Shown: one piece after another, positions 1 through 35,325 of the stretch
How the letters are laid out: every line of letters begins with the position of its first letter
How positions within the stretch are numbered: the stretch's first letter is position 1
Source of the DNA: Acidimicrobiaceae bacterium
GTDB lineage: Bacteria; Actinomycetota; Acidimicrobiia; Acidimicrobiales; MedAcidi-G1
DNA length: 63,365 nucleotides
Direction of reading: 5' to 3'
NCBI GenBank assembly: GCA_002729765.1
Contig: PBYV01000038.1
Span: 1-63,365, forward strand
Program-made: the position numbers and the translations under genes
The notes under the pieces: model-generated
The model's input: only the letters and a program-made list of their open reading frames with translations
The model's database searches: none
Told to the model about the DNA's origin: nothing

Positions 1-137
1 CAACTCTGCTTATAATGCTTGATGCGTTCCTGGGGGAAAGGTGGCGGTCTCTATATGAAGAGGCACTATATGAGAATTACAGATTCCTATCTTTTGGAGA
101 CGCAATGCTTGTACAAAGAGAATTTCTCAGAAAGTAG
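1..137 (+). CDS. queA: QueA C-terminal fragment (tRNA preQ1 ribosyltransferase-isomerase)
   Basis: This is the last 44 codons of the enzyme that moves the ribosyl group of S-adenosylmethionine onto preQ1 at tRNA position 34, giving epoxyqueuosine. Read from base 3, the frame ends at TAG 135-137 and carries the family's closing motif [12 protein letters not shown], with [12 protein letters not shown] before it. The start is outside the window. The stop is 11 nt before tgt, which inserts preQ1 into the same tRNAs, so two consecutive queuosine steps are co-transcribed. The final residues QREFLRK run slightly past the usual end. Identity rests on this short but diagnostic C-terminus. Confidence 0.9.
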
Positions 138-148
138 GCTGATCACTA

Positions 149-1258
149 ATGAGAGCTGACTTTGATTTAGAAAATACGGATGGAGAAGCAAGAACAGGCA
201 CTGTAAGGCTTGTAAATGGCTCCTTTAAAACACCCTGCTTCATGCCTGTAGGTACAAGAGGATCAGTTAGACATTTGTCTTCCTTGGATCTAAAAGACTT
301 AGGGGCTCAGGTGGTTTTAGCAAACACATATCACCTGATGCTCAGACCAGGTGCAGAAATAGTAAAAAATGCTGGAGGCATAGCATCATTTGCAAATTGG
401 ACAGGCTTGACACTAACTGATTCAGGCGGGTACCAGATATTTTCACTTGACCCAAAAATAGACGAAGAGGGCGCGACATTTCGTTCTGTATATGACGGTT
501 CCTTCCACAAACTAACACCAGAAAGTTCTGCTGAAATACAAGCTGACATCGGTGCAGACATTCAGATGGTTTTAGATATCTGTCCTGCTTTGCCAGCACC
601 GGAAGAGACCATAAGAGATTCTGTCGAAATGACTTCAGCGTGGGCCGAGAGAGGAAGAAAAACTTTTATTGACCACCCTGACGCTTCCTCTCGTCAAAGC
701 CAATTCGGCATAGTTCAAGGAGGAGTTAATCCTGAATTAAGAGCTGAGAGTGCAGAACGCACTTTGGAAATTGGTTTTGACGGTTATGCCATTGGAGGGT
801 TGAGCGTTGGTGAAGGTAGAGACGAAATGCTTGATTCAGTCTCAGTAGTAACTGATTTAGTCCCTAAAGACCAACCAAGATATTTCATGGGTTTAGGCGA
901 CCCGGTCGGTTTAGTGAATGTAGTTGAAAGAGGAATAGACATGTTCGATTGTGTTTTGCCAACTCGCTTGGCTAGACACGGTACCGTTTTAACGTCAGAA
1001 GGCAGAATCAACATCGGTAATGCCCGTTTTGCGAAAGACGACGATCCGCTTGATCCTGGGTTTCCTCAAAGTCCTGGAAATCATTGGTCTAGAGCGTATT
1101 TGCGTCATTTGATGGCCACGAATGAACCGACTGGGGCGCGTATTTTGACTTTACACAATCTTGCATGGCTTTTTAATTTTGTGGAACGTATGAGGACTTC
1201 TATAGATGAAAATGAATTTGATAACTTCCGAAAAGAAACTTTAGATATTTGGTCCTAA
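149..1258 (+). CDS. tgt: tRNA-guanine transglycosylase, lacking the usual zinc cysteines
   Basis: This enzyme exchanges guanine 34 of GUN-anticodon tRNAs for preQ1 in queuosine synthesis. At 369 residues it has normal length. The general-base Asp is visible in LTDSGGYQ (D91) and the nucleophile in MFDCVLPTR (D267). The ATG start gives the expected N-terminus and lies 11 nt after queA. One feature is odd: the bacterial family has a CxCxxC zinc site after the conserved DP-DP segment, but here residues 302-312 read DPGFPQSPGNH with no cysteine, although the downstream HNL histidine and the following AYLRHL helix remain. The enzyme may be metal-free or use other ligands; loss of activity cannot be excluded. 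Confidence 0.93.
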   Translation: MRADFDLENTDGEARTGTVRLVNGSFKTPCFMPVGTRGSVRHLSSLDLKDLGAQVVLANTYHLMLRPGAEIVKNAGGIASFANWTGLTLTDSGGYQIFSLDPKIDEEGATFRSVYDGSFHKLTPESSAEIQADIGADIQMVLDICPALPAPEETIRDSVEMTSAWAERGRKTFIDHPDASSRQSQFGIVQGGVNPELRAESAERTLEIGFDGYAIGGLSVGEGRDEMLDSVSVVTDLVPKDQPRYFMGLGDPVGLVNVVERGIDMFDCVLPTRLARHGTVLTSEGRINIGNARFAKDDDPLDPGFPQSPGNHWSRAYLRHLMATNEPTGARILTLHNLAWLFNFVERMRTSIDENEFDNFRKETLDIWS

Positions 1259-33477: not shown

Positions 33478-35325
33478 ATGAATGCCCGAAATAAAAATGG
33501 CCAGTTGACTTTTGAGTCAGCACTTGAATCAACTGAGGATGCTGAATCTGAAGTTCTTAGTTCTAATGACGATAAATCAAACTTGAGAGCAGTCAGGGTG
33601 CTTCCTGATGTTCCAGCTATCGATAAACCATTTGATTATTCAATTCCTCAGTTATGGATTGAAGATGGGAGAGCTGATCAAATAAAAGTTGGAACTATGG
33701 TCAGGGTGCCTTTCAGTGGACGACAGGTAAATGGTTGGGTATTAGAGATTGACATTCAACCTGAAGAAGGAATTAATCTGCTTTCGTTATCCAAATACAG
33801 AGGTGTTGGACCTTCTTCGGAAGTAATAGATCTGGCTCGTTGGGCGGCACATCGTTGGGCAGGTCGTCTCAATAGGTTTTTAACGACAGCGTCACCACCG
33901 AAGAATGTTCCTTTACTGGAGCAACGTAAGGATGGGATAGGGGAAACAAAAACCACTGCAAATGATACGGTTTGGTGGCAAGAAGCAGTGAAACATAAAG
34001 AGACTGTTCTTAGACTGCCACCATCACAGGATGCTGTCGCAATAGCATCTGAATTTGTGAGCAAGGGTAATACTTTGATCCTTTTCCCTTCAATTTCTGG
34101 TGCGCAGAAACTTGCTGCAGGTTTAAAGAGTAAGGGCTTACATGTTTCAGTAGTACCTGAACAATGGCAACATGCTGCTGTTGGGGGTTCTGTAGTGGGA
34201 AGCCGGTCGGCGGCATTTGCTCCTATAGTCGATCTTTCTGCAGTCGTTGTTTTTGATGAACATGACGCTTCCTATCAAGAGGAACGTGCTCCAACATGGA
34301 ATGCGCGTGATGTAGTTGCAGAACGAGCAAAAAGGAAAAATGTGCCATGCGTTTTAGTTTCCGCGATTCCTACGCTGGAAGCGATTTCATGGGGTCATCA
34401 AATTAAACCTTCACGTGAAGAAGAACGGGATGGATGGCCAATAGTTGAAATAATCGATCGGCGAGTTGATGATCCTATACGATCTGGTCTTTTAAGCCAG
34501 AAGCTAACTTCAATTTTAAGAGATGAAACAGGTCCTGTTGTTTGCATTTTGAACAGAAAAGGTCGTTCACGGCTCTTAGCATGTGACCGGTGCGGTTCTC
34601 TTGCAAGATGTGAAAAGCATTTGATTCCTCTGACTCAAAAAGAAGACCATGCACTTGAATGTCCATCTGGTTGCAATGATCGTCCTGTGGTATGTGATTC
34701 TTGTGGGTCAACAAGATTCAAAAATTTGCGTGCAGGAATAGCAAGACTGAGAGAAGAGTTGGAAGCGTTATCAAAGAAAAAAGTTGTAGAAATAAGTTCA
34801 GATTCAAAAGGAAAAATACCGGATTCAGATATTTATATTGGAACTGAAGCAGCTCTCCACAGAGTAGAACGAGCATCTCAGATAGTTTTTTTAGAGTTCG
34901 ATCAGGAACTTTTAGCACCAAGGTTTAGAGCTGCTGAACAAGCGGCTTCTCTATTAATTCGATCTGCACGGCTAATAGGTAACAGGAACGGAGGAGGAAG
35001 ATTAATCATCCAAACCCGGCAACCAGAGCACGAAGTTCTACAAGCTGTTCTCCATGCAAATCCAGAGAAACTAATCGAAGCGGAATCTGAGAGAAGACGT
35101 TTATTGCAATTACCGCCATACAGTGCTTTAGCTCAAATTTCAGGAGCTTCAGCTTCTGAAATGGTTCAATCTCTAAGTGGAATTTCCGGAATCGAAATTA
35201 TGGGTCCACGTGATGACTGTTGGCTCGTTCGCGCTACTGATAATAACGCTTTATCTCAAGCTATTTCGAGTGTGGGACGACCAAAAGGTAAAATTCGGAT
35301 AGAAATTGATCCGCGAAGAGCTTGA
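33478..35325 (+). CDS. priA: PriA-like primosomal protein N', helicase motifs degenerate
   Basis: PriA binds forked DNA and helps restart replication. The 615-residue product has the N-terminal DNA-binding domain (VRVLPDVPAIDKPFDYSIP), the Cys zinc-binding region (CDRCGSLARC ... CPSGC ... CDSCGS) and the C-terminal domain. The helicase part is eroded: the usual GxTGSGKTE Walker A is replaced by KGNTLILFPSISG, and DEEH by FDEHDASY. Loss of helicase motifs is known for actinobacterial PriA, which suggests a structural or loading role. The ATG is 14 nt after metK, with no good ribosome site. Confidence 0.85.
   Translation: MNARNKNGQLTFESALESTEDAESEVLSSNDDKSNLRAVRVLPDVPAIDKPFDYSIPQLWIEDGRADQIKVGTMVRVPFSGRQVNGWVLEIDIQPEEGINLLSLSKYRGVGPSSEVIDLARWAAHRWAGRLNRFLTTASPPKNVPLLEQRKDGIGETKTTANDTVWWQEAVKHKETVLRLPPSQDAVAIASEFVSKGNTLILFPSISGAQKLAAGLKSKGLHVSVVPEQWQHAAVGGSVVGSRSAAFAPIVDLSAVVVFDEHDASYQEERAPTWNARDVVAERAKRKNVPCVLVSAIPTLEAISWGHQIKPSREEERDGWPIVEIIDRRVDDPIRSGLLSQKLTSILRDETGPVVCILNRKGRSRLLACDRCGSLARCEKHLIPLTQKEDHALECPSGCNDRPVVCDSCGSTRFKNLRAGIARLREELEALSKKKVVEISSDSKGKIPDSDIYIGTEAALHRVERASQIVFLEFDQELLAPRFRAAEQAASLLIRSARLIGNRNGGGRLIIQTRQPEHEVLQAVLHANPEKLIEAESERRRLLQLPPYSALAQISGASASEMVQSLSGISGIEIMGPRDDCWLVRATDNNALSQAISSVGRPKGKIRIEIDPRRA

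Follow-up and report, generated by a model that had tools for sequence, protein, structure and literature searches.

Bacterial tRNA-guanine transglycosylase (TGT) is the first enzyme of the queuosine modification of tRNA and normally contains a structural zinc ion. For the Z. mobilis TGT (TIGR00430; PDB 1pud, 1enu), a homodimer interface cluster of Phe92, Trp326, Tyr330 and His333 is described in PMC5395182. Human QTRT1 and mouse QTRT2 belong to the same barrel family as the enzyme analyzed here, but differ from it in that both possess a zinc-binding domain, according to PMC6165067. The Tgt described in the following shares with the Z. mobilis enzyme the full-length fold, the pair of aspartates, the substrate pocket, the aromatic dimer cluster, the zinc-loop length and the histidine of the zinc site, whereas the three cysteine ligands are replaced by F305, Q307 and G310.

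The enzyme is encoded in the window, i.e. the whole stretch of 63,365 nucleotides that was analyzed (Table 1). In profile searches, its sequence matched TIGR00430 with 417.6 bits (cut-off 306.75) and PF01702 with 438 bits; the archaeosine TGT profile TIGR00432 scored 110.1 bits, which is below its cut-off of 350. The ligand columns were assigned by aligning the window Tgt with 266 other Tgts (267 rows), and the zinc-histidine column contains His in 231 of the 267 rows. In the pairwise alignment, the zinc stretch PLDSECHCAVCQKWSRAY of the Z. mobilis TGT corresponds without gaps to PLDPGFPQSPGNHWSRAY in the window Tgt. An earlier note on this DNA had claimed that the three zinc cysteines are absent after DPLDP, that D91 and D267 are both kept as catalytic aspartates and that the later zinc histidine is retained. 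All of this was borne out, since the alignment places F305, Q307 and G310 in the cysteine columns without an indel, equates the two aspartates with D102 and D280 of Z. mobilis and identifies the histidine as H336. From the CxCxxC plus His zinc site, H336 alone is left, and judged by its residues the protein is filed as a TGT outside the zinc-containing TGTs, which are the form represented by the solved structures.

Table 1 Coordinates of the tgt locus and of the zinc-site and catalytic codons in the window.
Feature	Position	Strand	Basis
queA, 3' end, cut by the window start	1..137	+	ending read by eye; same ending precedes tgt in relatives
tgt, tRNA-guanine(34) transglycosylase, 369 aa	149..1258	+	TIGR00430 and PF01702 matches
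Catalytic D91 codon (Z. mobilis D102)	419..421	+	alignment; every row of the four compared groups has D
Catalytic D267 codon (Z. mobilis D280)	947..949	+	alignment
Residues 302-312, DPGFPQSPGNH (CxCxxC stretch of zinc-containing TGTs)	1052..1084	+	translation, alignment
F305 codon (first zinc Cys of other TGTs)	1061..1063	+	267-Tgt alignment
Q307 codon (second zinc Cys of other TGTs)	1067..1069	+	267-Tgt alignment
G310 codon (third zinc Cys of other TGTs)	1076..1078	+	267-Tgt alignment
H336 codon (zinc His of other TGTs, kept)	1154..1156	+	267-Tgt alignment

The genome from which the window originates is fragmented (82 contigs) and has a completeness of 79.6%, which could point to a sequencing or assembly error as the origin of the cysteine loss. 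However, all members of the genus of the window (9/9) are without the three zinc cysteines, and the same holds for all three columns in 34 of 34 readable Tgts of its family f1, which comprises 37 genomes, two without a match and one, G028, covering residues 2-226 only, these three being left out; further families show the same loss. Cysteines in close relatives, which the earlier note had named as the observation speaking against its claim, were thus looked for and are absent in these 34 Tgts. Furthermore, tgt is under strong purifying selection, and this includes the zinc segment. The dN/dS values between the window tgt and four genus mates are 0.03-0.09, and pooled pN/pS among genus members is 0.094 for the whole protein versus 0.077 for residues 299-340, i.e. 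the zinc segment is equally constrained, with both analyses based on plus-strand loci and thus leaving out the genus mates L003, L006, L007 and L008. Because the loss occurs in all readable relatives of the family and the segment is under purifying selection, chance or base-calling error is excluded, and we regard the probability that an error in the source genome created the loss as practically negligible.

Within the set of relatives, in which 57 of 61 genomes had a Tgt match, 56 Tgts were readable, including 37 with none of the zinc cysteines, 18 with all three and one with a single one. In the Acidimicrobiia sample, Tgt was found in 167 of 247 genomes. The DNA pattern of the full zinc motif was detected in 158 of the 247 genomes, but this number is not a count of losses, since some matches are located outside tgt and the pattern-negative G071, G244 and G222 have three cysteines when read. 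When the Tgt-positive and motif-positive genomes were matched up and the doubtful ones read, cysteine-poor Tgts were also identified in families f13, f17, f18, f29, f31 and f32, one zinc cysteine is left in families f25 and f34, and most other families keep CxCxxC. The survey of Acidimicrobiia that had been proposed together with the initial observation therefore revealed that the loss spans the whole family of the window and several further families of the order. The cysteine-poor Acidimicrobiia Tgts group together or close by in trees, and a single clade of them is compatible with the data (p-AU 0.716); since f31 is located among cysteine-containing rows in the free tree, two losses within Acidimicrobiia could also have taken place. 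Two side observations concern the same sample. Many genomes of about 97% completeness from family f23 of the same order (genera g28, g39, g46) had no Tgt match, and queuosine seems to have been lost in much of this family, of which one member, G277, keeps a Tgt with the full set of zinc cysteines. The Tgt of L089, a record titled Bifidobacterium breve MAG, is separated by a very short branch from its neighbour in the tree, an Acidimicrobiia family (L076), and this record is probably a mislabelled bin.

The view of the loss as a peculiarity of one lineage turned out to be too narrow, because Alphaproteobacteria, and probably other groups too, have undergone an independent loss. Cysteine-poor records in a broad scan of named genome contigs included ones labelled Caulobacter, Phenylobacterium, Brevundimonas, Rhizobium, Brucella, a Parvularculaceae, a Rickettsiales and a Flavobacteriales. 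The best 80 of 592 Tgts from many phyla comprised 63 with three zinc cysteines, ten with one and seven with none, although most of the queries used for the similarity ranking were themselves cysteine-poor, which biases the sample to cysteine-poor Tgts. For the class of Caulobacter, Tgt was present in 170 of 190 genomes, and the 70 Tgts that were read, i.e. the 30 most similar to the Caulobacter Tgt plus 40 spread down the list, included 46 with three cysteines, one with two, 20 with one and three with none. All 41 of 41 genomes from the family that includes Rhizobium sp. Root708 have lost zinc cysteines one and three, and the zinc-histidine column of 30 proteins is occupied by Asn (22), Val (3), Ser (1) and His (4). 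The middle zinc cysteine is fixed in every protein read from this family (L239-L279), in which the histidine is mostly gone along with the first and third cysteines. The TGTs of Rhizobium, Brucella, Caulobacter and their kin thus resemble the window Tgt in the loss of the first and third zinc cysteines and in the single Tgt per genome; however, the alphaproteobacterial enzymes are of independent origin and mostly have S-x-C-P-A-S/A/T with the middle cysteine kept and His often changed to Asn, and the prolines of their replacement loop are located in another column.

One tree was built on all columns and later trees omit the ligand columns, all of them being quick trees. In a 208-row tree with the ligand columns removed, 11 changes of the zinc-site state were needed, which has to be read against the weak forks of a quick tree. 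A single origin of the losses in Acidimicrobiia and Alphaproteobacteria was rejected (p-AU 1.27e-13). From this we conclude that there is good support for a minimum of two independent losses, and that several others are likely. A replacement motif shared by both lineages (S-P-A in Acidimicrobiia, C-P-A-S in Alphaproteobacteria) was considered and rejected, because the prolines are in different columns (309 versus 308) and because many alphaproteobacterial Tgts that still have the cysteines already carry P308-A309. As a side observation, the Tgt of L161, a record labelled Candidatus Sulfopaludibacter, falls within the Caulobacterales/Rhizobiales group, and this record represents either a mislabelled bin or a transfer.

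An altered queuosine pathway, the second explanation offered in the earlier note, is unsupported, since a queA ending directly precedes the gene in 29 of the 35 loci with a cysteine-poor Tgt, a number obtained with an expression that may miss divergent endings, and queG is present in the genome of the window (258.7 bits, cut-off 200). This genome and 8/8 genus mates have one Tgt each, and a single Tgt match was likewise obtained for 17 of 17 genomes with a cysteine-poor Tgt in the named collection, three of which are Acidimicrobiia-like. The cysteine-poor Tgts of both Acidimicrobiia and Alphaproteobacteria show no variation in the catalytic and pocket columns, and the four aromatic interface positions (F81, W313, Y317 and H320 in the window Tgt) are kept. 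The window Tgt would exchange guanine 34 of tRNAs with a GUN anticodon for preQ1 by means of D91 and D267. Two alphaproteobacteria provide a link to genetics. By analogy with their kin, we infer that the zinc cysteines are also missing from Tgt SMc01206 of S. meliloti, a member of the Rhizobiaceae, the Rhizobium family sampled here, and from Tgt A0A0R4J8M4 of B. henselae, which belongs to the Hyphomicrobiales. According to PMC3568095, loss of tgt in S. meliloti produces the same phenotypes as loss of queC or queF, and of these mutants only the latter two are rescued by preQ1; according to PMC11570991, part of the Q-tRNA of an E. coli queDF tgt mutant is regained with the bTGT of B. henselae. 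This rhizobial and Bartonella tgt genetics, combined with a cysteine state deduced from kin, suggests that such cysteine-poor enzymes work, although the rhizobial ones still have the middle cysteine and in this respect differ from the window Tgt.

The zinc site is called a hallmark of the family in PMC6165067, and its loss could therefore indicate that the window Tgt is decaying or was repurposed to another function. Such a fate is very unlikely in view of the low dN/dS values mentioned above, the conservation of the catalytic and substrate-pocket columns, the synteny with queA and the presence of queG. We consider it highly probable that the window encodes an ordinary queuosine-pathway TGT in a metal-free variant form, in which the zinc site is replaced.

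How the fold might be held in such a variant was addressed with an AlphaFold2 model of the window Tgt (55 sequences), which yielded a mean pLDDT of 93.4, a pTM of 0.92 and a mean of 91 for residues 301-310, although AlphaFold2 ignores metals and follows aligned homologues, so that its confidence is no proof of metal-free stability. The model superimposed on 1pud with Z 54.5 and rmsd 1.4 over 368 residues, and a model of the Rhizobium Tgt L143 (pLDDT 92.3) did so with Z 51.9 and rmsd 1.6 over 364 residues. The window Tgt is thus predicted to adopt the TIM-barrel TGT fold over its whole chain. In the model, the length of the zinc loop is unchanged compared to the Z. mobilis TGT, and the C-terminal subdomain contains helices 315-323 and 327-353. 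Of the readings offered in the earlier note, which had also suggested a structure prediction, a fold held without the metal site is the best supported. In the window Tgt, a proline/aromatic loop F305-P-x-S-P-G/A310 would replace the zinc site, and F305 together with the prolines might hold the C-terminal subdomain by packing in place of the metal; Alphaproteobacteria would reach the same outcome with other residues, S-x-C-P-A-S/A/T. Since the dimer-contact positions are kept, dimer formation and tRNA binding are expected to be unchanged. Overall, the results presented here concern sequence, distribution, selection, genomic context and predicted fold, and we infer the metal-free state, the packing role of the loop, the activity and the dimer of the window Tgt.

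Alternatively, a metal might still be bound at the place of the zinc via H336 and other side chains or a partner subunit. Indeed, H336 is unchanged in 34 of 34 family f1 rows and in the listed cysteine-poor Acidimicrobiia, which would allow for some residual ligand. However, a comparison of 23 nonredundant cysteine-poor Tgts with 33 cysteine-containing ones of the Acidimicrobiia set revealed no column with a newly conserved Cys, His, Asp or Glu, some genus mates have N or Y in place of H312 of the window Tgt, and the histidine is gone as well in 26 of 30 Tgts of the Rhizobium-containing family, so that we regard a residual metal as unlikely. The idea of compensating substitutions common to both lineages was dropped, as a clear difference was confined to the ligand columns, followed by column 132 and the chain ends, which have no evident meaning. 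The list of 50 distinct sequences obtained with a Rhizobium query included no recognizable solved structure of a cysteine-poor TGT, with residues compared in the top alignment only and not in entries such as 10fa and 10fb.

In the metal-free reading, the question arises whether the loss is part of a lineage-wide zinc-saving programme, which was addressed in tests of 30 or 31 genomes each, hand-chosen from genomes with a Tgt read. Ribosomal protein L31 is cysteine-free in 15 of 16 readable Acidimicrobiia genomes with Tgt loss versus 2 of 10 readable ones with the full Tgt site (30 genomes searched, 29 matched, 26 read), as would be expected from such a programme, but this correlation tracks phylogeny and has exceptions in G247, G047 and G055. 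Moreover, each of the 26 readable alphaproteobacterial genomes has a cysteine-free L31, with Tgt loss in 12 of them and no such loss in the other 14. Other zinc proteins disagree as well: the CxxC pairs of ribosomal S14 are kept in 29 of 29 matches, the zinc enzyme FolE is present in 26 of 31 genomes searched, and candidate zinc ligands persist in two proteins of the window, namely HTATH and CGGTH in AlaRS, and C369/C372, C395/C399 and C406/C409 in a protein resembling PriA. Zinc saving as the driver, which is unlikely given the disagreement of S14 and the others and the independence of alphaproteobacterial L31 from the Tgt state, was therefore dropped to a weak rival. A relaxed need for the metal would be the simpler driver of the metal-free form, as in the model helices 315-323 and 327-353 may already hold the subdomain while packing stabilizes the loop.

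Some further observations were made on these proteins. The sole L31 found in the genome of the window (L305, G000:C6:47313-47546) is of the cysteine-free type, which also occurs in most cysteine-poor Tgt families of the order. The 615-residue PriA-like protein (window 33478-35325) keeps its paired cysteines, and its match is limited to the 3' DNA-binding domain of PriA (E 1e-10 or better). The FolE match in the genome of the window (G000:C32:3968-4498) scored 182 bits compared to about 256 in two genus mates, and might represent a diverged gene copy, another enzyme or a contig from contamination.

Among the results listed in searches of the open-licence literature, there was no report that a TGT lacks its zinc ligands and none on queuosine in the lineages concerned, and the words 'zinc' and 'cysteine' are absent from the main text of the Bartonella paper (PMC11570991). 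Taken together, we consider it likely that the zinc site is evolutionarily dispensable and that TGT became metal-independent on at least two occasions, and probably on four or more, with replacement loops that differ, the transglycosylase step proceeding without zinc in these lineages. What emerges is a genuine variant of a well-known enzyme that extends over whole clades and recurs, and the zinc rule for TGT seems to have exceptions. In a 2022 paper, FolE1, QueD, QueC and TGT are listed as requiring zinc (PMC9508795); if rhizobia, Caulobacter and other clades run TGT without a zinc site, this statement would need an exception. The links between queuosine and zinc status would then vary by lineage, and approaches that target the zinc subdomain and the dimer interface, by inhibitors or by engineering, might not be transferable. 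Finally, these lineages represent a natural experiment in replacing a structural zinc site, which includes intermediates with one or two cysteines.
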